The translations under genes and the position numbers were made by a program. From Candidatus Azobacteroides sp. (GTDB taxonomy: Bacteria; Bacteroidota; Bacteroidia; Bacteroidales; Azobacteroidaceae), in contig WRFY01000125.1 in the NCBI GenBank assembly GCA_009783445.1, positions 41,587-105,586 on the forward strand: a DNA stretch of 64,000 nucleotides, in the 5' to 3' direction. Positions 3,193 through 63,308 of the stretch are shown here, piece by piece (position 1 is the stretch's first letter; each line of letters begins with the position of its first letter). The notes under the pieces were generated by a model. That model was not told where the DNA came from. It ran no database searches and saw only the letters and a list, made by a program, of their open reading frames with translations.

Positions 3193-3714
3193 CTATTCTC
3201 GGTCAAAATCTCGGTTCCCTTCCTTGTCCACCCAACCGATTTGTTTTCCCGGATTTCCCACAACCAGCGCGTAAGCGGGAACATCTTTCGTGAGTACGCA
3301 ACCGGCCCCAATCATGGCATATTCCCCAATCGTAATCCCGCAAAGGATAGTCGCATTAGCGCCGATACTGGCGCCTTTTTTGACAAGCGTTGGTTTGAAT
3401 TCCGCTTTCCGATCGATAAAACTTCTCGGATTAATCACATTAGTAAACACGCAACTCGGCCCCAAAAAAACATCGTCTTCGCAAACAACTCCCGTATAAA
3501 CCGATACATTGTTCTGTACTTTTACATTATTTCCCAACACAACTCGGGGAGCGATCACCACATTTTGCCCGATATTACAGTTTTTGCCCACAACGGCGCC
3601 GGACATGATATGCGAAAAATGCCAAATTCGGCTTCCTTCGCCAATCACAACTCCTTCGTCGATTATAGCCGTAGAATTCGCCTGATAATCAGGAATTGGT
3701 CTTTCCATAAGCAA
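3193..3714 (-). CDS. Left-handed beta-helix acyltransferase (WbpD/WlbB-like sugar N-acetyltransferase)
   Basis: Hexapeptide repeats ([49 protein letters not shown]...), [14 protein letters not shown]-terminus. Confidence 0.82.
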
Positions 3715-4828
3715 TCAGTTGACAAATAATATAATCGAGCTGCGCTTCCTCCAATTCGGTATGTATCGGCAGCGACAATACAGAAGTGCAGAGTTGATCG
3801 GTTACACTTAAATCGCCTCTCGTTTTCAATATGTTTCTGAAAGCCGGCTGACGCTGCAAAGGTCGAGGGTAATATACCATCGTTGGAATTCCTTTCTTTT
3901 TCAAGTAGTTCTGCAAATCGTCTCTTTTGCCATTGTTTACTTTGATGGTATATTGATGATATACAGGATTCGATTGAGGAATGCAATAGGGAATTTCAAA
4001 CAAGCCGTTTGCCGAAAGCAAGGCCGCGTCGTATTCTTTCGCCGCTTTTCTTCGTGCGTGAATGTAAGCCGGCAAATGCGGCAATTTTACCCGCAATACG
4101 GCCGCTTGCAATGTATCCAGGCGCGAATTGCACCCGATGCGTTCGTGTATATATTTCTGCGATTGACCGTGAGATGCAATTTGCCTGAGTTTTTCCGCCA
4201 AGTCGTCTCGGTTGGTCAACAAAGCGCCCCCGTCGCCATAACAGCCCAAGTTTTTACTGGGAAAAAACGACAAAGTTCCTATATCGCCCATCGTTCCAGT
4301 CTGTTTTCGACTTCCATCCGAAAAAGTATAGTCGGCGCAAATACTTTGAGCATTATCTTCGACTACATATAAACCCCATTTCCGCGCTATTTGCATGACC
4401 GGTTCCATATCAGCGCTTTGTCCGAAAAGATGAACCGGAAGAATCGCTTTTGTTCGAGGAGAAATCGCTTCTTCTATTTTGCGCACATCCATATTGAAAG
4501 TTAACGGATCGACATCGACCGCTACCGGAACCAGTCGCAACAAAGCAACCGCCTCGACTGTAGCCGCATACGTAAAAGCAGGGACAATAACTTCGTCGCC
4601 TTCCTGTAAATCCAAAGCCATCAAAGCGATCTGAAGGGCGTCCGTACCATTGGCGCAGGGAATAACTTGCTTAGCGCCAGTCAGTTTCGACAATTCGGAG
4701 GCAAACAATTGTACTTCTTCCCCGTTGATATATCTTCCCGAACGAATTACGCGCAGGACTGCATCATCAATTTCTTCCTGTATCCGCTCGTACTGCGAAA
4801 TCAGGTCGGTCATCTGTATGGATTTCAT
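3689..4828 (-). CDS. DegT/DnrJ/EryC1 family PLP-dependent aminotransferase (WbpE/WlbC-like)
   Basis: [60 protein letters not shown] (PLP Lys) motifs; overlaps the downstream acetyltransferase. Confidence 0.88.
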
Positions 4829-5280
4829 ATCTTATACGCTCTCTCCATTTCTCGTTTGTCGTCTTTTTCCTTCAAGGACTGGCGTTTATCGTACATTTTT
4901 TTTCCTTTTGCAACAGCTATTAACATTTTGGCCAAACCTTTTTCATTGATAAACAAGCGAACAGGAACAATGGTAAATCCTGTGTTCATGGAAAGTTGTT
5001 CGATTTTATTCAACTCTTTCCGATTCAAAAGGAGCTTCCGGTCTCTCCGAGCTTCATGATTGTTGTAGGTGCCATAAAAATATTCGGATACATTCATATT
5101 CTTCACCCACAATTCTTTACGGATAACTACGCCGTAACTGTCCACTAAGCTGGCTTTTCCCATGCGGATGGATTTTATTTCTGTTCCCGTCAGAACAATT
5201 CCGGCGATAAAGGTTTCAATAAATTCGTAATCAAACGAAGCTTTTTTATTTTTAATCACTATGTTGCTGGATTGCCTCAT
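4825..5280 (-). CDS. smpB: SsrA-binding protein
   Basis: [46 protein letters not shown] ... [18 protein letters not shown]; 151 aa, typical SmpB. Confidence 0.95.
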
Positions 5281-20836: not shown

Positions 20837-21424
20837 ATGCTGGATTACATTAAAGGTGAAATTATTGAATTAACGCCGGCTTCAGTTGTTATAGAAGCGG
20901 GAAATTTGGGTTATTTCATCCATATCTCATTGAACACTTATTCAACCTTAGGCGGGCTAAAAAACTGCAAAATATATGTTTATGAAGTTATTCGCGAAGA
21001 TGCCCACCAACTTTTCGGTTTTATAGAGAAACGAGAGCGCGAACTTTTTCTGCTGCTGATTTCCGTGTCGGGCATAGGAGCGAATACCGCGCGGATGATT
21101 TTATCGTCCTTGGCTGTTTACGAATTGGAAAGTATTATTTCTGTAGGCAATGCATCGGCTTTGAAAACAATCAAGGGAATTGGAAGCAAAACAGCCGAAA
21201 GGATCATTATTGATTTGAAAGACAAGGTAAAACTAAGTGAAGAAACAACTGCAAAAACATCTTCTTCCCGTGTAGATTCGGAAACGGTTCATGAAGCGGT
21301 TTCCGCTCTGATGATGTTGGGCTTCAATCAGCCGGCTTCCCAAAAAGCGGTCGGCAAAATTATAAAGGAAAATTCCACGCTTTCGGTTGAACAAATAATC
21401 AAAAATGCGCTTAAAATACTTTAA
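20837..21424 (+). CDS. ruvA: Holliday junction branch migration protein RuvA
   Basis: MLDYIKGEIIELTPASVVIEAGNLGYFIHIS, LLISVSGIGANTARMILSS, IKGIGSKTAERIIIDLKDK (HhH motifs). Confidence 0.95.
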   Translation: MLDYIKGEIIELTPASVVIEAGNLGYFIHISLNTYSTLGGLKNCKIYVYEVIREDAHQLFGFIEKRERELFLLLISVSGIGANTARMILSSLAVYELESIISVGNASALKTIKGIGSKTAERIIIDLKDKVKLSEETTAKTSSSRVDSETVHEAVSALMMLGFNQPASQKAVGKIIKENSTLSVEQIIKNALKIL

Positions 21425-24400
21425 TGAAACAAAAGGGTAAAAACATGATTGTTGGCGCGATCGCCTTGATGACGGGAACGATCTACGGATTGAACACTAA
21501 TTGGACTGGCCTTCATTCGTTCGTTTCAGAAGAAACAGTCACAGAAGCGGATAGCGTTTCTCCCCCTCGTTTTCCAGTATCTCCTGTTGTTCCAGATACA
21601 TACGAAGATTTAAAGGAAGTTCATCCCATCGATTTGCAGAATCCGGAAAATTTGGACGAAGATTTCAAATACAATCCCGAAACCAACCGTTACGAATTGC
21701 ATACTCCAATCGGAAATACAGATTTGAACACTCCAATTTCGCTTACTCAAGACGAATATCTGAATTATACGCTTCAAAAAAGTATGTATTTGTATTTCAA
21801 GTCGCGGAACGAAGAAGAATTTTCAAGTCAAGGAGAAAAAAGGAAAGACGCCTTATCGATGTTTGATTTTAATTTTGATTTAGGTCCGGCAGAAAAAATT
21901 TTCGGCCCCGGCGGCGTACGCGTACAAGCGCAGGGAAGCGTGGAAACAAAAATGGGTCTTACCCGCACTTCTACCGGCAACCCGACCTTGACTGAACGGC
22001 AACGCAATCGCACGTCTTTCGATTTCGATCCGCAGGTTCAATTAAGCGCAAACGCTTCTGTGGGCGACAAAGTGAATTTCAATTTGAATTACAATACTTT
22101 ATCTACATTCGATTTTGATACTAAAAAATTAAAACTGGCTTATACCGGAAAAGAAGACGAGGTAATCAAAGTTTTGGAAGCGGGGAATGTCAGTATGAAT
22201 ACTACGAATTCCTTGATACGGGGAGGCACCGCTCTGTTTGGCATCAAAGCGGAATTGCAATTCGGTAAACTGACCGTAGGCGCTATTTTTTCTCAACAAG
22301 AATCACAATCCCGTTCGATCTCTTCGAAGGGAAATATTCAGACCACTCCTTTTGAAATCAAGGTAGATAATTACGACGAAAACATGCACTTTTTCCTCGG
22401 AAATTATTTTACAGATACTTACGATAAAGCCATGAGTACTCTCCCTTATATTCAATCGGGAGTCAGTATCGACCGGATTGAACTTTGGATCACCAATAAA
22501 CGTTCGAATTACAATCAAGCACGGAACATTGTGGCTTTTGCCGATTTGGGCGAAAATGTTCATATCAGCAATACCAGCGTAGTGCAGGTTACTCCCGGCG
22601 CAAGAGATTCGATTCCGTACAATCAAACAAACAATCTGTATTCCAAATTGGTACAGGAATATCCGGACGCGCGCAATATCAGCAACGTCAATCAGGCGTT
22701 GGATGGAAGCGGATTGACCGGCGGACGCGACTATGAAAAGATCGAAAATGCGCGCAGATTAGACCCGTCCGAATACAGGCTCAATAATCAGTTGGGCTAC
22801 ATCAGTTTGAGAATTCCCTTGCAGCCCGATGAAGTGTTGGCGGCGGCATACGAATATTCTTACAGGGGACAAGTATATCAGGTAGGCGAATTTTCGACCG
22901 ATAATCCGAATAACACTTTCGATAATCTGTATGTGAAAATGATCAAAAATACTGCCTTGTCGCCTGCTTCTCCTTGCTGGAACTTGATGATGAAGAATGT
23001 ATATACGATCAGTACGCGCGGCATAGAAAAAGATAAATTCCGCTTGGATATTAAATATCAAAACGATACGAGCGGCGTTTACCTCAATTACCTCACAGAG
23101 GGAGCTATTGCCAATAAACTTTTGTTGCGCGTGGAAAATCTCGACCGTCTCGATTCGAGAAATGAACCCTATTCCGACGGATTTTTCGATTATGTAGAAG
23201 GGTATACGGTCGTATCGCAGGATGGAAAAATTATTTTTCCGGTACTTCAACCTTTTGGCCAATATCTCAGAAAACAAATTAACGACGATGCCATTGCCAA
23301 TAAATATGTATTTCAAGAATTGTACGATTCTACTTTGACCGTAGCCCGTCAAAGCGCCGAAAAAAACAAGTTTATTCTGATAGGAGAATACAAGGGCGGC
23401 GGCAATTCGAATATCGAACTGGATGGATACAATATTGCCAAAGGTTCGGTGGTCGTTACAGCCAATGGCGTACGGTTGAAAGAAAATGTAGATTACAGCG
23501 TCAATAACGCTACTGGCGAAGTCACGATTTTGAATCCGGCCTACGAAAATGCAAATATTCAGACTTCTTACGAAAGCCAGTCCAATTTTGGAATGCAGCG
23601 GAAAACGATGATGGGACTCAATCTCAATTATGCGTTTTCTCCCAAATTCAACGTGGGGGCAACGATCATGAATCTGAGCGAGATGCCGTTGACCATGAAA
23701 ACCAATCCGGGCGAAGAATCTATCAACAATACTCTATTTGGCTTTAATCTCAATTATTCTAATCAATCGCAGTGGTTGACCAACTTGGTCGACAAGCTTC
23801 CGTTTGTAGAATTAACGGCGCCTTCGCAAATTACGCTCAGCGCAGAATACGCTCAGTTGATTCCCGGACACTACAAAAGCAAATGGGGCGGAAATTATTC
23901 GTATATTGATGATTTTGAGAGCGCTAAACGAACCATAGATTTGCGTTCTCCTTACTCCTGGTTTTTATCGGCCACGCCGTCCTTTTTTCCGGAATCCCGC
24001 AAGACAAACGATACAAGTTATGGAAAAAATCGATCCTTGCTGGCATGGTACTATATCGACGGATTGTTTACGCGAAAATCGTCGTTGACCCCTACGCATA
24101 TTAAGAACGATGAGAATCAATTGTCCAATCATTATGTAAGGGAAGTGAAGGAAGAAGAATTATTCCCGAACAAAGATATTCGTTACAACGAATCCTCGAC
24201 GGTTCCAGTGCTGAACTTGGCTTTTTATCCCAAAGAACGCGGTCCTTACAATGTGGATGCAGAGGGAATAAATGCCGATGGAACACTTTCGATTCCTCAA
24301 ACGCGCTGGGGAGGCATTTTTCGTAAAATCGACAGTAATCAAACAGATTTTGAAGCGGAAAACATCGAACATATCGAATTTTGGTTGTTAGACCCGTTTA

Positions 24401-27400
24401 TCTATGAACCTAATGCTGCGGGAGGCGATCTCTATTTCAATTTGGGCGAAATATCGGAAGATATTTTAAAAGACGGAAAAAAGTTTTTTGAAAATGGTTT
24501 GCCGATGGATGGCGATGCAAGCAAGATAGAAGAAACGGTATGGGGATATGTCCCGAAACAGCAATCGCTTGTTTATGCTTTTGATGCGGAAGGCGACCGG
24601 AAAAAACAGGATGTGGGGATAGACGGTTTGAGCAACGAACAGGAATTTACGCATTCTACGTATTCCAAGTACGTAACGGATTTTCAAACCCGTTTATCGC
24701 CGATAACCACTGAACAAATGAGACAAGATCCTTTTTCTCCACTTAACGATCCCGCCGGCGATAATTACCACTATTTCAGGGGATCGGATTTCGATCGGGA
24801 TGAAACGCCCATTTTGAGCCGCTACAAACATTACAACGGAACGGAAGGGAACTCGGCCAATGCAAGCGATTCGCCCGAAAGTTATGGAACGGCCGCCAAA
24901 ATAAGTCCAGACGTGGAAGATATCAATCAAGATAACACCCTGAACGAAATTGAAAAATATTTCCAATACCGCATATCCATTCGTCCGCAGGATTTGGTTG
25001 TGGGGAAAAATTTCATTGTAGACAAACGCACCACTTCGCCTCAACTTAAAAATGGCGCTTCCGAACAAGTGAACTGGTATCAATTCAAAATACCAATTCG
25101 TGAATATGAATCAATTGAAGGAGATATTCGCAATTTTCAGTCGATTCGATTTCTGCGGATGTTTTTGACAAATTTTGCCGATTCCGTCATTCTTCGCTTT
25201 GGAACTTTCGAATTGGTACGGGGCGATTGGAGAACTTATTCCAACGATTTGTCCAATCCGAATATGCCTCCGATGGGTAACGCCACGGTCAGCATATCAA
25301 CGGTGAATATCGAAGAAAATGGCGACAAACAGCCAGTCAATTACATCATGCCTCCGGGCGTAAACCGGATGACCGATCCGGGACAGCCTCAATTGATCTT
25401 GCAAAACGAACAGTCGCTGGCTGTTGCCATTCGGGATTTGTCTCCCGGAGACGCCCGCGCCATTTACAAAAACACGGGTTTAGATACCCGTCAATACCGG
25501 CGATTGCAAATGTTTATTCACGCGGAAAAATTGGGCGACAGTCCGCAGACAGTAAACGACAACGAACTTTCGGTCTTTCTCCGTTTGGGTTCGGATTATA
25601 AGAATAATTATTACGAATACGAAATTCCCTTAAAGATGACTCCGCCAGCTCCTGCTTCTGGTTACAGAGACAATTCTACAGATCAGGAAACGGTTTGGCC
25701 TCATTCCAATATGTTCGATTTTCCTTTCGAAATGTTAACCAATTTGAAATTAAACCGTAACAAGGAAAAAAGAAGGGAAGGTTCGGATGTCAATTATTAC
25801 ACCCCCTATTCGAATTTCGATCCCGAAAAACCAATGAATAAAACGACGGTTGTGGGAAATCCTTCCATATCCGACATCAAAGTGATTATGATTGGCGTTC
25901 GGAATAATTCGCGCGACAGTAAATCGACTGAAATCTGGGCTGATGAATTGCGTTTGACCGATTTCAACGAAGATGGAGGTTGGGCAGGCAATGCCAACTT
26001 GTATGTGGGACTTTCCGATTTGGGTTCGATCAATTTTTCCGGTCGAAAAGAGACAGCCGGATTTGGCAGCTTAGACCAGGGATTGATGGATCGAAACCTC
26101 GACGATATGCAAACCGTCAATGTGTCGACGCAAATCGAACTGGGGAAATTTTTCCCGGAAAAGGCCAAAGTAAGCATACCTCTTTATTATACCTACCGGG
26201 AAGAAGTGATCAGTCCGAAATATAATCCGCTGGATCAGGATATTTTGCTGAAAGACGCGCTGAATTCGGCAGAAACCAAAGCCGAAAAAGATTCCATCCG
26301 GAGTTTTGCCTTGAATAAAGTTACCAATCGTTCACTGGACATCAACAACATGCGGGTAAATATCGTCAGCGAAAAACCAATGCCTTACGATCCAGCCAAC
26401 TTTACGTTTGGCTATTCCTATTCGCAGAATAATATCCAGAATGCAACTACAGAATACGAACGGCAAATCGACCAGCGGCTGCTGTTTAGTTATTTGTATT
26501 CGCCGATGGTTAAACCATGGAGACCTTTTTATAAAAATAATAAACCTATTAGCAAGTATAAGTTTTTGAGTGAATTTCAAATTGGTTATTTGCCTAAAAG
26601 CATTGCCTTTAATTCAGATATGAACCGAAGTTATTTTGAATCGCAATTGCGCGATATTGGAAGTTTGGGCGAAAACATGATTCCTCCTTCGTTCCGGGAA
26701 GATTTTTACTGGAACAGAACTTCCGCCATCAGTTGGGATTTGACCAAAAACTTGCGTTTCAATTTGAATACCGGAACCAATGCCCGCATCGACGCTCCGC
26801 ACGTACAGGTAAATAAAAAATTCAATATGGACGATTATAACCTGTGGAAAGATTCCGTCATGCAAAGTATCCGCGATTGGGGTACTCCCATGGAATATGC
26901 TCAAAATTTTTCGGCTACTTACCAACTTCCGTTTAGCTTGATTCCAGCTTTGAATTTCATTTCCGGCAATTTATCCTACAATGCACAATATGAATGGAGA
27001 AGAGGCGCTCTCATTGATATAGAAGCCGTTGAAGTAGGAAATCTCATTTCTAATCAACGCACGGTGGGATTGGATAATATCTCTTTGAACCTGATCAATT
27101 TGTACAATAAGAACAAATTTTTGGAAAACGCTAACAAAAAATATGTTCTGAAAACTCCCAGTTCCCTTGCGCGGAATGCTCGACGCAACACGCAACAGAA
27201 TCCTCCCCGCAATCAGCGAACGGAAGAAAGGAGAAATAAAAAATACGAAGGAGAAGTTCAGTTAAACAAAGATTCGGCAACGGTTGTCCGGCACTCTTTA
27301 GACAACAAACGTTTGCGGGTGATGGCTCGCGGCGCCGATGGAAAAATATATCCAGTCCGTTATAAAGCAATAGATAACAATTCGATACGAATTAAAAACA

Positions 27401-28893
27401 AAGATTCGGTTTCCTTAAAATTGACCATTACTCAATTGCCGCCTTTAGACGATTTGAATTGGTATAAGATAACGCAGGGAGTCGCGCGGGGACTCATGAT
27501 GGTTCGTAATTTGGGATTCACTTACAGTCAAACGCAAGGAATGATGATTCCCAATTTTCGTCCGGATATCGGCAATTTTTTCGGTCAGGGTTATACCGAT
27601 TGGGGAAAAGCGCCCGGATGGGATTTTGCCTTTGGACTAACGGGTGAAGAATATCTCTACAAAGCCAATGCCAACGATTGGTTGGTTAAAAATGAAGACA
27701 ACGTGACGCCGGCCATGTTCAGCTCCACAGAAATGTTTAATTTTACGGCTTTGCTGGAACCCATTGTCGGAATGAAAATCAACCTGACTGCCAACCGGAT
27801 GGCTACGGACCAAGACCAGATTTATTTCATGTACAGCGATATGCCAAAGCGTTTTTCGGGTAACTTTTCTATGACGACAATCAGTTTGGCCACTGCATTT
27901 GAAAGAGGTAATGCAAACAACGGATATTATTCCAAAGCATTTCAAACTTTCCTCCACAACCGGGAAATCATTGCTCAGCGGATTGAAAAGAAATATCAAA
28001 ATACGGTTTACCCCGATGCTGGATTTCTGCAAGGAAGCGATTGGGCTAATCAAAAATACAATTCTGAGAACGGAGGAATAGATCAGAATGCCACCGATGT
28101 ATTGATCCCCGCTTTTTTGGCCGCTTATACCGGTCAAAATCCAAAGCGAATCGGGTTGAGTTTCTTCCCTGCGCTGCGCAGCGTGTTGCCGAATTGGCGT
28201 ATTTCTTACGAAGGACTTATTCAATTGCCGCTCATTCAGAAGTATTTCAAATCGTTTGTGCTCGAACATGGATACAAAAGCCAGTATGCGGTAGGTTCTT
28301 ACAATTCGTTCTTGAATTGGGTAGAAGCTTCCGACGGATTAGGTTTTATCCGCAACATTACCACCGACAATCCGACACCTTCTTCGGCCTACGATGTAGC
28401 GTCGGTCAGCATTATGGAAGCCTTCGATCCCTTGATTCGCTTAAATTCTCTGTTTCTCAATAATATGAGTTTTAAAATAGAATACAAAACGTCCAGAAAT
28501 GTCAGTTTGAATGTATCTTCCTATCAGATAGTGGAGATGAATACAACAGACGTAGGAATGGGTATGGGTTATCGAGTGGAAAATTTCAACCGATTCTTGC
28601 GATTGCCCAAAACAGGCGGAAACAACTTCAACAATGAATTGCGGGTTTCAGTGGATATTTCCTACCGGAGAATGCAAACGCTCATTCGGAAAATTCAAGA
28701 ATCGCTTACTCAGGCAACCAGTGGAGATGCGCAGACTATACTCAAACTAACGGCCGATTACAATATGAGTAAAATGCTGGTATTGCAAGTTTTCTTCGAT
28801 CGGCAAATCAGCAGGCCTTTAGTGACTTCGACCGCTTATCCGCTTACGAAAACAGCCTTTGGCATCAATGCAAAAATCAGTTTAAACCGGTAG
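21424..28893 (+). CDS. sprA: Cell-surface/outer-membrane protein SprA (type IX secretion translocon component)
   Basis: 2489-aa single ORF with SprA-like repeated beta-strand segments, immediately downstream of ruvA as in other Bacteroidota. Confidence 0.93.
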   Translation: MKQKGKNMIVGAIALMTGTIYGLNTNWTGLHSFVSEETVTEADSVSPPRFPVSPVVPDTYEDLKEVHPIDLQNPENLDEDFKYNPETNRYELHTPIGNTDLNTPISLTQDEYLNYTLQKSMYLYFKSRNEEEFSSQGEKRKDALSMFDFNFDLGPAEKIFGPGGVRVQAQGSVETKMGLTRTSTGNPTLTERQRNRTSFDFDPQVQLSANASVGDKVNFNLNYNTLSTFDFDTKKLKLAYTGKEDEVIKVLEAGNVSMNTTNSLIRGGTALFGIKAELQFGKLTVGAIFSQQESQSRSISSKGNIQTTPFEIKVDNYDENMHFFLGNYFTDTYDKAMSTLPYIQSGVSIDRIELWITNKRSNYNQARNIVAFADLGENVHISNTSVVQVTPGARDSIPYNQTNNLYSKLVQEYPDARNISNVNQALDGSGLTGGRDYEKIENARRLDPSEYRLNNQLGYISLRIPLQPDEVLAAAYEYSYRGQVYQVGEFSTDNPNNTFDNLYVKMIKNTALSPASPCWNLMMKNVYTISTRGIEKDKFRLDIKYQNDTSGVYLNYLTEGAIANKLLLRVENLDRLDSRNEPYSDGFFDYVEGYTVVSQDGKIIFPVLQPFGQYLRKQINDDAIANKYVFQELYDSTLTVARQSAEKNKFILIGEYKGGGNSNIELDGYNIAKGSVVVTANGVRLKENVDYSVNNATGEVTILNPAYENANIQTSYESQSNFGMQRKTMMGLNLNYAFSPKFNVGATIMNLSEMPLTMKTNPGEESINNTLFGFNLNYSNQSQWLTNLVDKLPFVELTAPSQITLSAEYAQLIPGHYKSKWGGNYSYIDDFESAKRTIDLRSPYSWFLSATPSFFPESRKTNDTSYGKNRSLLAWYYIDGLFTRKSSLTPTHIKNDENQLSNHYVREVKEEELFPNKDIRYNESSTVPVLNLAFYPKERGPYNVDAEGINADGTLSIPQTRWGGIFRKIDSNQTDFEAENIEHIEFWLLDPFIYEPNAAGGDLYFNLGEISEDILKDGKKFFENGLPMDGDASKIEETVWGYVPKQQSLVYAFDAEGDRKKQDVGIDGLSNEQEFTHSTYSKYVTDFQTRLSPITTEQMRQDPFSPLNDPAGDNYHYFRGSDFDRDETPILSRYKHYNGTEGNSANASDSPESYGTAAKISPDVEDINQDNTLNEIEKYFQYRISIRPQDLVVGKNFIVDKRTTSPQLKNGASEQVNWYQFKIPIREYESIEGDIRNFQSIRFLRMFLTNFADSVILRFGTFELVRGDWRTYSNDLSNPNMPPMGNATVSISTVNIEENGDKQPVNYIMPPGVNRMTDPGQPQLILQNEQSLAVAIRDLSPGDARAIYKNTGLDTRQYRRLQMFIHAEKLGDSPQTVNDNELSVFLRLGSDYKNNYYEYEIPLKMTPPAPASGYRDNSTDQETVWPHSNMFDFPFEMLTNLKLNRNKEKRREGSDVNYYTPYSNFDPEKPMNKTTVVGNPSISDIKVIMIGVRNNSRDSKSTEIWADELRLTDFNEDGGWAGNANLYVGLSDLGSINFSGRKETAGFGSLDQGLMDRNLDDMQTVNVSTQIELGKFFPEKAKVSIPLYYTYREEVISPKYNPLDQDILLKDALNSAETKAEKDSIRSFALNKVTNRSLDINNMRVNIVSEKPMPYDPANFTFGYSYSQNNIQNATTEYERQIDQRLLFSYLYSPMVKPWRPFYKNNKPISKYKFLSEFQIGYLPKSIAFNSDMNRSYFESQLRDIGSLGENMIPPSFREDFYWNRTSAISWDLTKNLRFNLNTGTNARIDAPHVQVNKKFNMDDYNLWKDSVMQSIRDWGTPMEYAQNFSATYQLPFSLIPALNFISGNLSYNAQYEWRRGALIDIEAVEVGNLISNQRTVGLDNISLNLINLYNKNKFLENANKKYVLKTPSSLARNARRNTQQNPPRNQRTEERRNKKYEGEVQLNKDSATVVRHSLDNKRLRVMARGADGKIYPVRYKAIDNNSIRIKNKDSVSLKLTITQLPPLDDLNWYKITQGVARGLMMVRNLGFTYSQTQGMMIPNFRPDIGNFFGQGYTDWGKAPGWDFAFGLTGEEYLYKANANDWLVKNEDNVTPAMFSSTEMFNFTALLEPIVGMKINLTANRMATDQDQIYFMYSDMPKRFSGNFSMTTISLATAFERGNANNGYYSKAFQTFLHNREIIAQRIEKKYQNTVYPDAGFLQGSDWANQKYNSENGGIDQNATDVLIPAFLAAYTGQNPKRIGLSFFPALRSVLPNWRISYEGLIQLPLIQKYFKSFVLEHGYKSQYAVGSYNSFLNWVEASDGLGFIRNITTDNPTPSSAYDVASVSIMEAFDPLIRLNSLFLNNMSFKIEYKTSRNVSLNVSSYQIVEMNTTDVGMGMGYRVENFNRFLRLPKTGGNNFNNELRVSVDISYRRMQTLIRKIQESLTQATSGDAQTILKLTADYNMSKMLVLQVFFDRQISRPLVTSTAYPLTKTAFGINAKISLNR

Positions 28894-42676: not shown

Positions 42677-42909
42677 ACGAAAAAAAGAATATGCAAAATC
42701 TTTTTTCGGAACGATCGCGTCATTTCCGTAGACTGAAACATACAATAAACCAAGCGTCGTCTCCTGCGGGACGACTTAGTTTACAGTTCAGCTATTTCTT
42801 CTTCGTCGTTATTTTTATTTCTGCGCTTTGCAGGCCGTTCGACTATGCTTCTGTTTCATTTCCCCGCAGCAGCTTTCGATGCCTCTTCCTTATATTAGGA
42901 TAATTATAC

Positions 42910-42950
42910 AAAAAAGCCAAGAAAGAATTTTATTTCATTTCTTGACTTTT
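42910..42950 (-). terminator. Intrinsic terminator of surface-protein copy A
   Basis: Minus strand AAGTCAAGAAA...TTTCTTGGCTTTTTT, 11-bp stem plus T-tract; same element after copy B. Confidence 0.7.
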
Positions 42951-42990
42951 CTGAACTAAATTAATTAACTTCTTTTGGTTTTTTTATTTT

Positions 42991-45900
42991 TTATTCAGCA
43001 ATACAACGCACAGAAAGCATCATGGTGAAATACAGAGAATTTACCTGTCTACTGGACGAGGTGAATTCCAAAATGGAAGCCAATGCAACGGACTGGGAAG
43101 TACCATAATGGTCAAAGGAAGAACTCCAGTAACGTCCGGTTGCTCCGCGTAGATCCAAGTTTCCTCCATTTAAGCTGTGAGAACCCCCAGCCGGCAAGTA
43201 TAATCCGTCGCCAATGAATATTCCGCTGGAGAAATTTGCAGCATTGTTATTCCACGTGCCTATGTTGCGTATGGAATTGTTACTTAATGCGCCCTGCCAT
43301 TGAGCGGCTGTCGGAACCCGGTAACCCATAGGACAAGGGTCGTTCGCCGTTTTTTCATTGTTATTCCATGCGTCGACGGGTGCGTAAGCGCTGTTCCAAC
43401 CGGGAGCGCCAACGTCGCTTACCGTTGCAGCCGCTTGGCTGCGTCCAAATTGGTAGTAAGAACCATTCAGTCCGGACGCCGGAGAAAGCGGATTCAGCGA
43501 TTGATTCGCTCCTAAATTATAGCACATGAACGATTTCCATTCATTGGAACTGATCTTGGCTCCACAGCAAATACAATCTTGAATCGAAATAATCAACGGA
43601 ACCGAATAATTGGTAGAACCCACTGTATATACTGCATATAATCTTATTTTGGCAGCCTGCGCCCGCGTGCGTCCCACAATCAGCGGATTGCTGTCCGCCG
43701 AATTCAAATTCGTCTTGAAATTCAACACAATCGTTGCCGTATTTCCGGAAGCAATAGACGTGCCGCTATAATTAACCGTATAAGGAGAGGTTTCATCCAA
43801 TACATTTTCCGGATCAACTACCACAAAACGGAAGTTGTTTCCTGCCTCTTTTGCAGTAAAGGTATATAATTTATCGTTCAGGGATAGGGAAGCAAAAGAG
43901 GTTTTATTGGCTAATCGGCCGTCTCTGTTTCCGCAATCGCCTCCAAAATTCGATTCGACAATATCAAAGCAAATTTTACCCGCCAAAGTACCTTTTCCGG
44001 TGGCCATATTGGCTGGATCGTCGCTTACCGTTAAGGTAAAGAGTGGAGAATCAGCATGAGTACCGCAACCATTGGCTACTCGACACCAATAGCTTACGGT
44101 TCCCGTTTGAGTTGGGGTACAAACGAAGGAGGAAATACTTCCTACTTCTGCATCCATATCCCCTACGTTATTACCCTTGTACCATTTATAATTTGCTTGA
44201 TTGAGATTGTTTGCCGTCACGCTTAAAGTAACCGAATTGCCTACGATCGTTGCAATGTTTTTCGGACCCACCGGACTGGTGATTACCGGCGCTGGACAAA
44301 CATTTGACAGGTGTATCGTCTTCTGCAAAATGGGGACGCTTACATCTTGTCCGCAAGCATTGACGCCTCGAACTGTTATTTTTACGCTATCGCTATTTGC
44401 GTTAGCCGCGGTTGGATATACTACCGAAACGCGCGAGTTTCCCTGACCCACTGTGAGATAGGCCGCTGTAACGTCTATTCCGCCCATTTCGAGAGTCCAT
44501 GTATAAGTAACCGGTCCATTCGTACCCGCTACTTCAAGGGTTTTCTGGTCGCCGTAATAGGCGTCTTGCGGTTCTTCAACCCAAGTAAGGCGAGTAAAGT
44601 CGAACAGAGTAACCGTTTTTACGGCCGACATCTGGCTGACGCAGCCTCCATCGGATACCGTAGCAGTATAGTTGCCCGGTTGAGTCACCTGAATGCTGGG
44701 TCCCGTTACTCCCGTCATCACGGCGCCGTCCTTGTACCATACCACTATAGGCGAACTGGCTTGCGTGATGACGGAAAGAGAAGTGTTTCCTCCGCACAAC
44801 GAGGAAGAGCCGGTGATCAACGGAATAGCCGGCGCTGGAGTAGCGTCTATGGGTACATTCGCGCTGATTTCACTTGCACAACCGCTGCCGGTAGCCCGCA
44901 ACCGGATGACAACGCTGGACGCCGAGGGCAGCGGATAATAAATACCGGTACCCGTGCCGATTTGCGTATTGTCGGCATACCAGGTATAGGCATATTGAGG
45001 ATCGTAATTGTTTACTTCCAAATAGGCGGATCCGTAATTGCAAAAACGCCAATTGGAAGTCACTCCGTTAATTTTCATGCTGGGCGTTGGAACAGGAGAA
45101 CTGGAATTATCTACCCGCACCAGAACCGCTCCCGACAAAAGGGAAGAACAGTCTCCGTCTTCAATCGCCGCTTGCCATACTCCAGCGGCGGCCTGAATTT
45201 CCGTTTGGTTGTCAAACGAAGAACCTTGTTTTACTCCATCTTTGAACCAGACAATTTTGCCTGCTGGAGGATTCACAAGAGTCAGTTTGACGGTACCGCC
45301 CGCGCCGCAAGCAACTCCATTGTTGGCGCTGATGATTTGCTGAGGCGCTTCGGGAGCCGTAGTTTCAGATGCGGAGACTTGTACGGATTGTGAATTGGGA
45401 CATCCGATTTTGTCTCCATACACAATGTATTTACCGGCTTGGGTAGCCATATATTGTACACCGCGGGCCACTTCTTCTCCGTTCAATGTCCAAATATAAG
45501 TTCCGTTCGCTGGACGATTATCCAAATAGAGATAAACCGCTCCGCCCACGCAAAGACTCAACGAATTTTCCGTTTTGATATTCGGAACAGCGCTGGTTGT
45601 TCCGCAACCTGTATTATCGCCCGATTGCTCAAAAACAAAGGTATTCGTATCTCCACAAGGGGTCGTAACCAACAAAAGAGCGTTACGGGAAGATGCGCGG
45701 TCGTTCGGTTGGAATTTTACGGAAAATCTTCCCGCTCCGGCGTCTAAAATCGTTAGATGATCAATGTACTGTTCGCCCGAAATCCAAGTAAAGGAAAAAA
45801 CTCCGGGTTGAGTACAGGAAAGATCAGAAGCCGTATATTTGTTTTCTTTTGATCCATCGAAAGGGAAAGGACTGACATTTCCCGGATCTTCGGTCAATAC

Positions 45901-46242
45901 CAGCGAGCTGCCCGAATTGAGCCTCATCCAATTGTCGCCGTCCCAAATGTAAAGTCCAGCGCCCGTCGTTGCGTTAATATTATATACAATGGTACCTCTC
46001 AAGTCTTGGTTTATGTCCTGTGCTTGAGTAATTCCTACAAATCCAACATTTGGAATCTGTCCTAAATCAGGAAGATCGACATGCGAAAGCAATAATCCTC
46101 CTGTCGTAGTGCTGTTCAAGTCGAGAAGCGCTCCCGCTTGAGGGTCGGTTAATCCGCCAATGGTAACTTGAGATTGAGCATTGTTCATTGATAACACCAT
46201 TACTGCTATCAAGAAAAATAGGGAATAAAGTGTTGTTCTCAT
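42991..46242 (-). CDS. Large secreted/surface protein, copy A: signal peptide, adhesin-head-like N-terminus, Cys-rich Ig-like repeats, C-terminal FISUMP-like domain
   Basis: MRTTLYSLFFLIAVMVLSMNNAQSQVTIGGLTDPQAGALLDLNS...; SNEWKSFMCYNLGAN...GSYYQFGR...DPCPMGYRVPTAAQW...SVRCIAE. Start set at MRTTL (1083 codons) shared with copy B. Confidence 0.85.
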   Translation of the reverse strand: MRTTLYSLFFLIAVMVLSMNNAQSQVTIGGLTDPQAGALLDLNSTTTGGLLLSHVDLPDLGQIPNVGFVGITQAQDINQDLRGTIVYNINATTGAGLYIWDGDNWMRLNSGSSLVLTEDPGNVSPFPFDGSKENKYTASDLSCTQPGVFSFTWISGEQYIDHLTILDAGAGRFSVKFQPNDRASSRNALLLVTTPCGDTNTFVFEQSGDNTGCGTTSAVPNIKTENSLSLCVGGAVYLYLDNRPANGTYIWTLNGEEVARGVQYMATQAGKYIVYGDKIGCPNSQSVQVSASETTAPEAPQQIISANNGVACGAGGTVKLTLVNPPAGKIVWFKDGVKQGSSFDNQTEIQAAAGVWQAAIEDGDCSSLLSGAVLVRVDNSSSPVPTPSMKINGVTSNWRFCNYGSAYLEVNNYDPQYAYTWYADNTQIGTGTGIYYPLPSASSVVIRLRATGSGCASEISANVPIDATPAPAIPLITGSSSLCGGNTSLSVITQASSPIVVWYKDGAVMTGVTGPSIQVTQPGNYTATVSDGGCVSQMSAVKTVTLFDFTRLTWVEEPQDAYYGDQKTLEVAGTNGPVTYTWTLEMGGIDVTAAYLTVGQGNSRVSVVYPTAANANSDSVKITVRGVNACGQDVSVPILQKTIHLSNVCPAPVITSPVGPKNIATIVGNSVTLSVTANNLNQANYKWYKGNNVGDMDAEVGSISSFVCTPTQTGTVSYWCRVANGCGTHADSPLFTLTVSDDPANMATGKGTLAGKICFDIVESNFGGDCGNRDGRLANKTSFASLSLNDKLYTFTAKEAGNNFRFVVVDPENVLDETSPYTVNYSGTSIASGNTATIVLNFKTNLNSADSNPLIVGRTRAQAAKIRLYAVYTVGSTNYSVPLIISIQDCICCGAKISSNEWKSFMCYNLGANQSLNPLSPASGLNGSYYQFGRSQAAATVSDVGAPGWNSAYAPVDAWNNNEKTANDPCPMGYRVPTAAQWQGALSNNSIRNIGTWNNNAANFSSGIFIGDGLYLPAGGSHSLNGGNLDLRGATGRYWSSSFDHYGTSQSVALASILEFTSSSRQVNSLYFTMMLSVRCIAE

Positions 46243-46428
46243 TTTAATAACATGTTTTTTTGAATTTAAATACATTTCTTTGATTAATTATGTCCTTTAT
46301 CTGTCCGTTTTTCAACCAATGTGATGTGTGCGATTATTTAGTTTTGTTTCCCAATTTCTTTTTTATTCTGTTTCCGTCTTTGCGGTTATAAAGAAAACTA
46401 TATAAGACATAGTTTTAATAATGAGTTG

Positions 46429-46459
46429 CAAATATAGTGTAATATCTTATGCAGAACAA
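46429..46459 (-). promoter_or_regulatory. Promoter of copy A: TTG-N20-TATATTTG
   Basis: CAAATATA at 46429-46436 and CAA at 46457-46459 on +; same spacing and box as copy B; ~187 nt upstream of the ATG. Confidence 0.75.
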
Positions 46460-46684
46460 GGATTTTTGCAAAAGTTAAATTTAATTTTAGGAATCAAAAA
46501 AAAATTAAGATATGTACCTATACAAATAGACATTCAGAAAAAAACAATTGTAATTTTTTTCTGAATTTTAAGAAATATAATCTATATATCTGAAAAAAAT
46601 CGTAATTAAATGACTGAATAGTATCATAAAAATACTAAATGACACTTTTTATGTCATTATTTAATATTCGTCTTCCTGCCATTA

Positions 46685-46727
46685 TAAAAAAAGCCAAGAA
46701 AGAATTTTACTTTCTTTCTTGACTTTT
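46685..46727 (-). terminator. Intrinsic terminator of surface-protein copy B
   Basis: AAGTCAAGAAAG...TTTCTTGGCTTTTTTT on minus; near-identical to the copy A terminator. Confidence 0.7.
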
Positions 46728-46766
46728 GGACTATCGATGAATTAACTTTTCTCTATTTATCTATCT

Positions 46767-49700
46767 TTATTCAGCTATGCAGCGAACGGAAAGCATCATA
46801 CTGAAATACTCAGAATACACCGTTCTATTGGATGAACTGAATTCCAAAGTGAAAGCCAATGCAAATTTAGGATCTCCATATATATAATGGTCAAATGAAG
46901 AACTCCAATAGTGTCCGTCTGATCCGCGCAAACATAAGCCTCCGCCATTCAAACTGCGCCAACCTGCCGCCGGCAAGTATAATCCGTCGCCAATGAATAG
47001 GCCGCTGGTGAAATTTGTACTGCTATTATTCCACGAGCCTACGTTGCGTATGGAATTATTACTTAATACGCCCCTCCATTGATCCACTGTCGGAACGCGG
47101 TAACCCGTCGGACAAGGATCGTTTACCGTTTTTTCATTGTTATTCCATGCATCGATGGGCGCATATATGGGATTCCAGCCGGAAGGATAACCGTCGTTTT
47201 GCTCGTTTGCTTTTGCAGCCTCATTTTTGCGTCCAAATTGGTAATAAGAACCGTTAAGACCGGACGCCGGTACAAATGGGTTCAGCGCTTCATTCGCTCC
47301 CAAGTTATGACACATGAACGATTTCCATTCACTGGAACTGATCTTGGCGCCGCAGCAAATACAATCTTGAATTGAAATGGTCAACGGAACCGAATAATTA
47401 GTAGAACCAACCGTCCACGCTGCATATAATTTTACTTTGGCGGCTTGCGCTTGCATACGTCCCACAATCAGCGGATTACAATCCGGCAAATTCAAATTCG
47501 TCTTGAAGTTCAACACAATTGTTGCCGTATTTCCGGAAGCAATATTCGTACCGTTAAAATTATTCGTTGCGGTATAAGGATGGGTTTCATCCAAAACCCT
47601 TTCCGGATCGACTACCACAAAATGAAAGTTGCTTCCTGCGCTTTGTGCGGTAAAGGTGTATGTTTTATCCTTGATCGACATGGAAGCAAAAGAGGCTTTG
47701 TTGGCCAGTCGGCCGTCTCTGTTTCCACATTTGCCTCCAAAGTTCGACTCGACAATATCAAAACAAATCTTGCCAACCAAAGTTCCGCCGCCGGCGGGCA
47801 TATTGGCTGGATCTTCGCTGACGGTTAAGGTAAAGAGAGGAGAATCGACATAAGTACCGCAACTATTGGATATCCGACACCAATAACTTTCGATTCCCGT
47901 TTGAGTTGGGGTACAAACCATGGAAGAAGTGTTTCCTACCGGTTGAGTAGTAACCCCTGCGCCGCCTTTGTACCAGGTATAATATGCTTGATTGAGATTG
48001 TTTGCCGTAACGCTCAAAGTAACCGGATTGCCTACGATCGTTGCACTGTTTTGCGGGCCGATCGGACTGGTGATTACGGGCGTTGGACAAACATTTGACA
48101 GGGTTATCGTCTTCTGCAAAATGGGGTCGGTTACATCCTGTCCGCAAGCATTGACGCCTCGAACCGTTATTTCTATTTGGCTATTGCCTCCTATGGGATA
48201 TTCTACCGAAACGCGCGGACTTCCCTGACCGGCTATGAGATATCTTGAGGTAATATCCACTACGCCCTGCTTGAGAGTCCATGTATAAGTAACCGGTCCG
48301 TTCGTACCCGCTACTTCAAGGGTTTTTTGGTCGCCGTAATAGGCGTTTTGCGGCTCTTGAACCCAGGTAAGGCGGGTAAAGTCGAACAAAACAACCGTTT
48401 TTACAGCCGACATCTGACTGACGCAGCCTCCGTCGGATACCGTAGCGGTATAATTGCCCGGTTGAGTCACCTGAATGCTGACTCCCGTTTCTCCCGTCAT
48501 TACTTCGTTGTCTTTATACCATATTACTTTAGGAGCGCCGACTGGAGCGCTGACGGAAAGAGAGGTACTTCCTCCGCACAACGACGACGAGCCGGTGATC
48601 AACGGAATGGCCGGAGCAGAAGTTTCTTCTATCGGTATCTTGGAACTGACTTCTTTTGCGCAACCGCTTCCGGTAGCCCGCAACCGTATAATTATGCTGG
48701 ATGCCGCGGGCAGCGGATAATAAATACCAGTACCTGTGCCGATTTGCGTATTGTCGGCATACCAGGTATAGGCGTATTGAGGATCGTAGCCGTCTACTTC
48801 CAGATAGGCGGATCCGTAATTGCAAAAACGCCAATTAGAGGTCGCTCCGTTGATTTTCATTCTGGGTTCAGGAATATTACCGCCGGAAAGGTCTACACGT
48901 ACCAGAACCGATTCCGATAAAATAGAGGAACATTCGCCGTCTTCAATCGCCGCCTGCCATATTCCTTCGCCCGCAAGAATCTCCGACTTGTTGTCAAACG
49001 AAGAACCTTGTTTTATTTCATTTTTGAACCAGACAATTTTGCCTTGGGCCGGAGGATTCACAAGGGTCAGTTTGACGGTACCTCCCGCTCCGCAGGCAAC
49101 TCCATTGTTGGCGCTGATGATTTGTTGAGGCGCTTCGGGAGCCGTAGCCGTAGATGCGGAGACTTGTATGGATTTTGAAATGGGACATCCGATTTTATCT
49201 CCATACACAATGTATTTACCGGACTGGGTAGCCGCATATTGGGCGCCTCGACTCACTTCATGCCCATTCAACGTCCAGATGTAAGTTCCGCTCGTTGGAC
49301 GATTTTCCAAATAGAGATAAACCGCTCCGCCCACGCAAAGACTCAACGAATTTTCAGCCTTGATATTCGGAACAGAACCGGTCGTTCCGCAACCCGAATT
49401 ATCGCCCGCTTGCTCGAAAACGAAGGTATTGCTGTCTCCGCAGGGGGTGGTAACCAATAGAATGGCATTGCGGGAAGATGCGCGGTCGTTCGGTTGAAAT
49501 TTTACGGAAAATTTTCCCGCTCCTGCGTCTAAAATCGTTAGATGATCAATGTACTGTTCGCCCGAAATCCAAGTAAAGGAAAAAACTCCGGGTTGAGTAC
49601 AGGAAGGATCAGAAGCGGCGTAAGCGTTTTCTTTGGATCCGTCGAAAGGGAAAGGACTGACATTTCCCGGATCTTCGGTCAATACCAGCGAGCTGCCCGA

Positions 49701-50027
49701 ATTGAGCCTCATCCAATTGTCGCCATCCCAAATGTAAAGTCCGACGCCCGTCGCGACGTTCGTATTATACACAATGGCGCCTCTCAGCTCTTTGTTTATA
49801 TCCTGTACTTGAGTGATCCCTACGAATCCAACATTCGGAATCTGTCCTAAATCAGGAAGATCGACATGCGAAAGCAATAATCCCCCTGTCGCTGTACTGT
49901 TCAAATCGAGAAGCGCTCCCGCTTGAGGGTCGGTTAATCCGCCAATAGTAACTTGAGATTGGGCATCTTTCATAGACAGCGCCATCACGGCTGTCAAGAA
50001 AAATAGTGAATAAAGTGTTGTTCTCAT
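46767..50027 (-). CDS. Large secreted/surface protein, copy B (paralogue of copy A)
   Basis: MRTTLYSLFFLTAVMALSMKDAQSQVTIGGLTDPQAGALLDLNS...; same domain order and FISUMP-like C-terminus. Start set at MRTTL. Confidence 0.85.
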   Translation of the reverse strand: MRTTLYSLFFLTAVMALSMKDAQSQVTIGGLTDPQAGALLDLNSTATGGLLLSHVDLPDLGQIPNVGFVGITQVQDINKELRGAIVYNTNVATGVGLYIWDGDNWMRLNSGSSLVLTEDPGNVSPFPFDGSKENAYAASDPSCTQPGVFSFTWISGEQYIDHLTILDAGAGKFSVKFQPNDRASSRNAILLVTTPCGDSNTFVFEQAGDNSGCGTTGSVPNIKAENSLSLCVGGAVYLYLENRPTSGTYIWTLNGHEVSRGAQYAATQSGKYIVYGDKIGCPISKSIQVSASTATAPEAPQQIISANNGVACGAGGTVKLTLVNPPAQGKIVWFKNEIKQGSSFDNKSEILAGEGIWQAAIEDGECSSILSESVLVRVDLSGGNIPEPRMKINGATSNWRFCNYGSAYLEVDGYDPQYAYTWYADNTQIGTGTGIYYPLPAASSIIIRLRATGSGCAKEVSSKIPIEETSAPAIPLITGSSSLCGGSTSLSVSAPVGAPKVIWYKDNEVMTGETGVSIQVTQPGNYTATVSDGGCVSQMSAVKTVVLFDFTRLTWVQEPQNAYYGDQKTLEVAGTNGPVTYTWTLKQGVVDITSRYLIAGQGSPRVSVEYPIGGNSQIEITVRGVNACGQDVTDPILQKTITLSNVCPTPVITSPIGPQNSATIVGNPVTLSVTANNLNQAYYTWYKGGAGVTTQPVGNTSSMVCTPTQTGIESYWCRISNSCGTYVDSPLFTLTVSEDPANMPAGGGTLVGKICFDIVESNFGGKCGNRDGRLANKASFASMSIKDKTYTFTAQSAGSNFHFVVVDPERVLDETHPYTATNNFNGTNIASGNTATIVLNFKTNLNLPDCNPLIVGRMQAQAAKVKLYAAWTVGSTNYSVPLTISIQDCICCGAKISSSEWKSFMCHNLGANEALNPFVPASGLNGSYYQFGRKNEAAKANEQNDGYPSGWNPIYAPIDAWNNNEKTVNDPCPTGYRVPTVDQWRGVLSNNSIRNVGSWNNSSTNFTSGLFIGDGLYLPAAGWRSLNGGGLCLRGSDGHYWSSSFDHYIYGDPKFALAFTLEFSSSNRTVYSEYFSMMLSVRCIAE

Positions 50028-50221
50028 TTTAATAACATGTTTTTTGGGTTTAAATCTATTTCTATAGTTAATTTTGTTCTTTATTCGTCTATTTTTAGAA
50101 CAATACAGCATAGGCAATACTATTTTAGTTTTGCTTACTAATTAATGATTCTATTAATGTAATTAGGATATAAAAAAACTAAGTGGGAGAGATAGTTTTG
50201 ATAAAATTATGAAATACATTG

Positions 50222-50253
50222 CAAATATAGTGCAATCTATCGTATAAAACAAA
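50222..50253 (-). promoter_or_regulatory. Promoter of copy B: TTTG-N20-TATATTTG
   Basis: CAAATATA at 50222-50229 and CAAA at 50250-50253 on +; ~195 nt upstream of the ATG. Confidence 0.75.
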
Positions 50254-50428
50254 AATATTCACAAAAATTAAATATAATTTCAGAAATCAAACGAATGGAA
50301 GATAAAACTATTGAAGCGCAAAGTCGGTCGTTGCGAATGCAAAACTCTCATAATGAGCGGATTTAATGTATTGATCAGACCACAATAGTTAAACTTTATT
50401 AAAACGCAGAAAATATATGCCAAATAAT

Positions 50429-50459: not shown

Positions 50460-50465
50460 CACTGT

Positions 50466-50535
50466 GTTTTTCATGGTATTAGATTTAAGGTTAACAATGA
50501 AGATTGGTTGTCGGGAAGACAACCTTTTCTTTTTT
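50466..50535 (+). ncRNA. Small RNA candidate of about 70 nt
   Basis: Promoter, then GTGTTTTTCATGGTATTAGATTTAAGGTTAACAATGAAGATT, then intrinsic terminator GGTTGTC-GGGAA-GACAACC-TTTTCTTTTTT; no convincing CDS. Confidence 0.6.
50506..50535 (+). terminator. Intrinsic terminator of the ncRNA candidate
   Basis: GGTTGTC GGGAA GACAACC TTTTCTTTTTT. Confidence 0.8.
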
Positions 50536-50586
50536 AAACCCTTTTGCAGAAAAATAAAGATGGAAGTAAAGCGGTAAAGCCTCAAA

Positions 50587-61899: not shown

Positions 61900-63162
61900 T
61901 CAAAGTCCCAGTTCTTTTCTGATTTTCTCCACATAATCCAGTTTTTCCCACGTAAATAACTCTACTTCAAGCGATTTAATCGGTTCTTCGTTATATTTTG
62001 AAGTAAAAACTTTTCTGACGACTTCCGGTTGGCGTCCCATGTGTCCATAGGCAGCGGTTTCCAAATAAATTGGATGACGGAGTTTCAAGCGATTTTCGAT
62101 CGCTTTGGGACGCATGTCGAAAATGGCAGCCACTTTCTCCGCTATTTGACTGTCGGTCAAGGAAATTTTACTTTTTCCATACGTATTCACAAAAATACTC
62201 ATTGGTTCGGCAATTCCAATAGCATAAGCAACTTGTACCAAAATTTCGTCGGCGACTCCTGCAGCTACCAAATTTTTGGCAATATGACGGGCGGCATACG
62301 CAGCCGAACGATCGACCTTGGAGGGGTCTTTTCCCGAAAAAGCGCCGCCTCCATGCGCTCCTTTTCCGCCGTACGTATCCACGATGATTTTTCTTCCCGT
62401 TAATCCAGTGTCGCCATGAGGACCGCCAATCACAAACTTGCCGGTTGGATTGACATGGTATTTGATTTTATCATTAAACAAAGCCTGTACATGCAATGGA
62501 TATTTGGCTTTTACCCGTGGAATCAAAATTGTTTGAACATCTTTCGTGATTTTGATCTGCATCGCCTCGTCCGTATCAAATTCGTCATGTTGAGTAGAAA
62601 TGACAATGGTATCGATGCTTTCGGGCGTTCCGTTGTCGTTGTATCGAATCGTCACTTGTGATTTGGCATCGGGACGAAGATAAGGCATCAGCTCGATTTC
62701 GTTTTTGCGGATATGGGTCAATTCGATCAACAGTTGATGGGACAAATCCAAAGGCAAAGGCATATAGTTGGCCGTTTCATTGGTTGCATAACCAAACATC
62801 ATACCTTGGTCGCCCGCGCCTTGATTGAGCAAATCTTTCCGTTCCACTCCCCTATTAATATCGTCCGATTGTTCATGAATAGCGCTCAAAACGCCGCAAG
62901 ATTTTGCTTCAAACTGATATTCGCTTTTGGTATAGCCTATTTTTTCAATTACTTTCCGGGCTACGTCAGGAACATCTACATAAGATTTTGATTTTACTTC
63001 TCCAGCCAATATTACCTGGCCAGTGGTCACTAATGTTTCGCAAGCTACTTTGGAATCAGGATCGTATGCCAAAAACTGATCTAGTAGAGCATCTGAAATT
63101 TGGTCGGCCACTTTATCGGGATGACCTTCAGATACCGATTCGGATGTGAATAAATAACTCAT
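61900..63162 (-). CDS. metK: S-adenosylmethionine synthetase
   Basis: [55 protein letters not shown]. Confidence 0.97.
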
Positions 63163-63209: not shown

Positions 63210-63245
63210 AAGCGAAAGGAAATTGTTTGACCAGAACCGAATGAT

Positions 63246-63295
63246 GGTTTTTAGCATTTTTTTTCGTGGTTGCAAGCATACAAATCTTTCCACTT
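63246..63295 (-). promoter_or_regulatory. SAM-II (SAM-alpha)-like riboswitch aptamer upstream of metK
   Basis: Minus strand AAGTGGAAAGATTTGTATGCTTGCAACCACGAAAAAAAATGCTAAAAACC: GTGG/CCAC stem, GATTTG, GCTTGCAACCACG, A-rich linker, GCTAAA, in the order recalled for SAM-II. Confidence 0.75.
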
Positions 63296-63308
63296 TCTAA
63301 TTTGGGAA

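Follow-up and report, generated by a model that had tools for sequence, protein, structure and literature searches.

A tandemly duplicated, Ig-stalked adhesin-like gene unit in a probable termite-gut Bacteroidales genome, diverged most in its FISUMP-like tip

Two adjacent genes in the 64,000-nucleotide stretch of Candidatus Azobacteroides sp. DNA analysed here (the window; contig WRFY01000125.1) are diverged tandem copies of one transcription-unit-sized segment of approximately 3.6 kb, made up of a coding sequence, a promoter-like block and a terminator. The reading we favour, at a probability of roughly 0.6, is that the whole unit of a secreted, Ig-stalked adhesin-like gene was duplicated within a single lineage, and that its two tips represent a fixed repertoire in place of one mutated by a retroelement. 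The elements of the two units are as follows:

42991..46242, minus strand: copy 1 coding sequence, 1083 aa, with signal peptide, head, Ig-like repeats and FISUMP-like tip
46767..50027, minus strand: copy 2 coding sequence, 1086 aa, architecture as copy 1 and 80% amino acid identity to it
42903..46498, minus strand: duplicated unit, copy 1 (approximate, limits of detectable homology)
46681..50291, minus strand: duplicated unit, copy 2 (approximate, limits of detectable homology)
46499..46680, no strand: inter-unit spacer of ~182 bp, homology between the units undetectable
46429..46459, minus strand: copy 1 promoter-like site TTG-N20-TATATTTG, from a motif scan
50222..50252, minus strand: copy 2 promoter-like site TTG-N20-TATATTTG, from a motif scan
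42910..42950, minus strand: copy 1 terminator hairpin with T tail, from folding and homology
46687..46727, minus strand: copy 2 terminator hairpin with T tail, from folding and homology

A preliminary description of this DNA had placed both genes on the same strand with about 1083 and 1086 codons from a shared MRTTL start, and exactly these lengths were found, both on the minus strand; they are the only long copies in this genome (2.7 Mb, 99.85% complete). Homology extends for ~250 nt upstream of each start codon, to the outer limits at 46498 and 50291, and local alignment of the 5' regions, excluding the 60 nt before the ATG, gave a score of 80 against a shuffle maximum of 35 (0/300), with the 3' terminator regions scoring 86, again against a maximum of 35 (0/300; dinucleotide-preserving shuffles, n = 300 for each). 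The earlier proposal that the duplication took in the whole unit, promoter-like and terminator elements included, is upheld by this result, since self-alignment, which had been named as its possible refutation, revealed homology in both segments and both beat 300 of 300 shuffles. Exactly one TTG-N20-TATATTTG site of the Bacteroidota type is present in each upstream region, against a chance expectation of 0.05-0.07, and the terminator hairpins are much more stable than their shuffles, with folding z-scores of -6.4 and -4.0. The promoter-like sites lie 3793 bp apart, as originally claimed, and the terminators 3777 bp rather than the 3775 bp given before, so that the earlier coordinates and spacings were right to within 2 bp. 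The motif and its conservation suggest that transcription of each copy could start at a promoter within its own unit.

On the strand opposite copy 2, and a short way upstream of it, lies a FopS sRNA (RF04319, 82 bits; 50464-50536, plus strand), which is preceded by a TATCTTTG motif and has its own terminator. This genome has three FopS matches, two of them above cut-off, and conservation of FopS has been described within the Bacteroidaceae (PMC11697453). We rejected FopS as a regulator of the two copies, its duplexes with their start regions (-13.8 and -9.4 kcal/mol) being no better than those with other genes of the window. A SAM-II riboswitch (61 bits) is also present, at 63241-63299 on the minus strand, upstream of the gene at 61900-63162.

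The two proteins share 80% amino acid identity (dN 0.12, dS 0.42) and are separated by several indels, so the pair is not a duplicated segment of the assembly, and with a dS of 0.42 the duplication is old rather than recent. Synonymous divergence is even along the gene (chi-square p 0.23). In contrast, dN is uneven (p 5e-8), rising from 0.04 in the head to 0.29 near the C-terminus, and identity, which is 90% in the head and 92% in the next domain, falls to 78% across the Ig region and to 70% at the FISUMP-like tip. Every one of the 24 cysteines in copy 1 has its counterpart in copy 2. The differences between the copies show no adenine bias, which indicates that they arose by ordinary substitution. 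The domains at either end of the proteins map to:

49692..49955, minus strand: copy 2 N-terminal head (residues 25-112), the module most widely shared in the genus
46770..47345, minus strand: copy 2 FISUMP-like C-terminal domain (residues 895-1086), AF2 pLDDT 90.4
42994..43557, minus strand: copy 1 FISUMP-like C-terminal domain

A Sec-type signal peptide was called by eye in the products, and residues 113-213 look BACON-like by eye, for which Pfam gave no confirmation. The Ig-like repeats of the preliminary description were recovered in both copies, where PF19081 (Ig_7) reached 42.4 and 47.0 bits (gathering cut-off 27.3) in three to four stretches and other Ig models also exceeded their cut-offs. 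Its FISUMP-like C-terminus stands as regards the pattern (CPxGYRVPTxxxW ... YLPAxG ... YWSSS ... VRCI), which is that of FISUMP/Fib_succ_major proteins, and as regards relatives above threshold, such as the sister member G018 copy A (36.5 vs 33.9 bits in Pfam), but both window copies fall below the curated cut-offs of PF09603 (Fib_succ_major; 20.4 bits for copy 1 and 12.2 for copy 2, cut-off 33.9) and TIGR02145 (FISUMP; 18.0 and 20.1 bits, cut-off 41.65). We keep the label FISUMP-like, in which the sub-threshold scores are backed by the family alignment and the above-threshold relatives. The window copies further differ from other FISUMP/Fib_succ_major proteins in their long Ig stalk and genus-shared head module. 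A literature text search for 'FISUMP' returned no papers.

In the full-length AF2 model the tip had a pLDDT of about 40-60, and a domain model of the tip (AF2, built from 37 FISUMP sequences) was used instead. Many of its best matches in the PDB were C-type-lectin folds, none of them significant (best E 0.21). For comparison, the C-terminal domain of the Legionella collagen-like adhesin Lcl (PF07603/DUF1566; PDB 8q4e; PMC11162425) ranks second among the fold matches and is recovered by sequence (E 0.16) as well as by fold (E 0.22), in neither case significantly; Lcl is trimeric with a collagen stalk, whereas the window proteins have an Ig stalk. A FISUMP protein encoded elsewhere in this genome (L115:6094-6762) passes the cut-offs of both Lcl_C (35.2 vs 34.9) and Fib_succ_major. 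Its gene and a second FISUMP gene are adjacent (L115 6094-6762 and 6864-7505), and two 250-aa genes that are near-identical to each other (MAEEELIREHAKHALQSL...) occur at 3200-3955 and 4271-5023 (G000:C96). In Foldseek, the full model matched Ig-stalk proteins with low TM-scores, the top match being Grappling hook protein A (GhpA) of Aureispira (E 2e-25), likewise from the Bacteroidota and with an Ig-like stalk; however, the TM-scores are only 0.11-0.13, as in a flexible multi-domain match, and the GhpA fragments belong to a protein of >5000 residues.

The organism encodes a T9SS, with SprA/Sov in the window directly after RuvA (21424-28893, plus strand; TIGR04189, 2684.6 bits) and type-A tails (TIGR04183) above cut-off at 32 loci elsewhere in the genome. 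Neither protein of the pair matches the type-A tail model at E up to 1, and no lipobox was found in the two products. Because neither a T9SS C-terminal tail nor a lipobox was detected, display of the pair at the surface, or in the surface layer proposed earlier, is only predicted. Ig-like proteins with Sec signals, predicted to be adhesins, are known from a related ecological setting, in the Bacteroidales species Synergitannerella mixotrichae that lives as an ectosymbiont on a termite flagellate, but 51 of its 56 Ig-like proteins carry the T9SS C-terminal motifs that the window pair lacks (PMC12483993).

By recF, the named relatives (identity up to 78%) comprise MAGs under the names 'Candidatus Symbiothrix' and Dysgonamonadaceae, the latter from termite guts, and sister genome G026 shares its recF coordinates exactly with the Symbiothrix record JAISKT010000166. 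The genus is that of termite-gut 'Candidatus Symbiothrix' and its relatives, and the lifestyle of our organism is predicted from it; 'Candidatus Symbiothrix dinenymphae' is described, in a title cited in PMC2717939, as a bristle-like ectosymbiont of termite-gut protists. Sampling one genome per species, the long family (E 1e-40 or better) is present in 13 of the 41 genomes of the genus and in 0/7 genomes from other genera of the Azobacteroidaceae; a scan of genome contigs with the single protein P0002 confirmed no relatives. The head of ~110 residues occurs in many different proteins of G026 and G036 (>10 matches listed in each) as the modular head of a large secreted-protein family.

In the phylogenetic tree the two window copies cluster together (100/100), as do the copies of the sister species G018 (100/100), and the two groups are mutual nearest neighbours. 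On one G018 contig (C69) two members are separated by 97 bp that include a hairpin, and another (C77) carries the 3' end of one member followed by a further member; both contigs break off at a near-identical stretch common to them, indicating an array of at least three copies. This bears out the suggestion of an amplifiable family, and the proposed comparison with related genomes finds that copy number varies between species, because the same subfamily forms an independent tandem array in one sister genome. Tandem amplification would thus have occurred on two or more occasions, unless homogenisation of an old array produced the pattern.

A conserved genomic position was rejected, because in the relatives examined the flanking pairs recF-dciA and DUF177-fabH are carried by separate contigs or lie a long way from each other; among these relatives, only G021 has a FISUMP-type gene (L233 2819-3295, G021:C404) directly upstream of DUF177-fabH-era, as copy 1 is. 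A secreted TlpA-like gene of the thioredoxin family lies directly downstream of an Ig-FISUMP gene in five other genomes, with a CxxC motif in four. It is possible that this protein is a dedicated disulfide helper for the Cys-rich adhesin. The loci are:

L103 11569-12816; L107 9646-10554; L109 845-1705; L110 645-1991; L113 2963-4216: TlpA-like neighbours in relatives
L226 6036-7289: TlpA-like relative in this genome, unlinked to the pair

Within the genus, 23 of the 41 genomes gave reverse transcriptase matches, some of which lie next to FISUMP C-termini, and in six sister genomes FISUMP-type C-termini are the targets of DGRs, each with a variable region, a template repeat and a reverse transcriptase:

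L255, L256, L257, L258, L259, L260, L263, L267, L271: nine FISUMP DGR loci, in genomes G013 (four loci), G005, G025, G026, G028 and G012

Variable regions and template repeats at these loci measure 86-201 nt, their mismatches fall at template adenines in 141 of 152 cases, and the reverse transcriptases of all nine contain IGNLTSQ, which we take to fit (I/V/L)GxxxSQ, the motif typical of DGR reverse transcriptases. Three more DGR-like pairs of variable region and template repeat with an adjacent reverse transcriptase have no FISUMP match (L261, G026:C374; L270, G012:C9; L273, G008:C134). This targeting of FISUMP-type C-termini appears to be new for the genus; a literature search combining DGR and termite found no report of DGRs in it. 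In human microbiomes, DGR targets with FISUMP/Fib_succ_major domains at their C-termini have been described, as have Ig-like targets (PMC4159848). The variable domains of such targets are C-type-lectin-like (DUF1566, Fib_succ_major; PMC4159848), and the tips homologous to those of the window are the variable regions in the six sister genomes, but the window genome itself has no detectable reverse transcriptase or template repeat. Alignment to the sister genes places the equivalent regions at:

46770..46982, minus strand: copy 2 equivalent of the sister-species DGR variable region (LYLPAAG to end)
42994..43203, minus strand: copy 1 equivalent of the DGR variable region

No reverse transcriptase (RVT_1) was detected in this genome, with control genomes giving matches, and the last 450 nt of copy 1 match only themselves and copy 2 (best other match 19 nt, E 0.57). 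None of the nine sister-species template repeats aligns to the window tips. A retroelement at the locus itself was rejected on these grounds together with the missing adenine bias. Nevertheless, the tip differences are modestly enriched at retroelement-variable positions: the copies differ at 10 of 19 template AAY columns (at least two targets) vs 8 of 44 elsewhere (OR 5.0, p 0.0076), and at OR 6.5 (p 0.0037) when columns are defined as changed in at least two, with uncorrected p-values of 0.0037-0.046 over six definitions (63 columns), although much of a lectin-like surface would tolerate change anyway.

The alternative that survives best, which we nonetheless regard as rather unlikely, is one of plain dosage or redundancy, where the same adhesin is encoded twice and the tip diverges as a structurally tolerant domain with its specificity unchanged. 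In its favour are an overall dN/dS of 0.29, which reaches 0.43 in the final complete block of 60 codons, with no sign of positive selection, and the fact that FISUMP tips are the most variable domain genus-wide; the enrichment at DGR-variable, presumably ligand-facing positions and the retention of separate promoter-like sites over a dS of 0.42 speak against it. An older tandem pair common to G018 and homogenised by gene conversion in each lineage appears quite improbable: tandem members of the same clade do occur in both species, and G018 copies B and C reach 96-100% identity at their shared end, yet we rejected gene conversion between the window copies on their even dS, with no sign of conversion tracts, and the gene neighbourhoods of the pair and the G018 array differ. 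We consider it likewise improbable that an ancestral DGR wrote the two tips and was later lost. DGRs are common in the genus and act on homologous tips, one DGR target is a short-form gene (G005:C415) that shares the head and pre-FISUMP domains, and several variable sites that differ between the copies have NNY codons in both (D/C, T/D, R/H, I/T); against this stand differences that are not adenine-biased, several variable sites with non-NNY codons (TGG, GAA, ATG) and sister templates of which 0/9 align. An assembly artefact or strain chimera is scarcely credible, since the genome is a draft of 125 contigs but its contamination estimate is 0.02, and the copies, which are 20% different in protein and set apart by several indels, sit together on a single contig of 105.6 kb, where the spacers flanking them are not the same.

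The duplication of the whole unit in one lineage thus remains the preferred explanation. In this presumably termite-gut member of the Bacteroidales, from the genus of 'Candidatus Symbiothrix', the transcription unit of a secreted, Ig-stalked adhesin with a lectin-like tip would have been duplicated in tandem, the head and following domain being held nearly constant in both copies and the FISUMP-like tips drifting or being selected apart at presumed ligand-facing positions. Because the tips diverged preferentially at positions that retroelements vary, the pair most likely offers two binding tips that are related but not alike and that may also differ in function. We hypothesize that tandem duplication here stands in for the retroelement; two partial reverse transcriptase matches in G018 weaken the idea of an array in place of a retroelement, and no clean rule emerges. 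More tentatively, the genus may have two routes to diversify one binding face, a retroelement in some species and whole-unit duplication in a species without one, in which case the pair would be a separately expressible two-member repertoire diverged at DGR-editable positions. Few of the molecules are known by which Bacteroidales ectosymbionts attach to particular hosts among the termite-gut flagellates. This family, found only in the genus, joins a head that stays constant and a stalk of Ig-like repeats to a type of tip that is a retroelement target in sister species; it offers concrete candidates for that specificity and lets two ways of varying an adhesin, duplication and targeted mutagenesis, be compared in nature.
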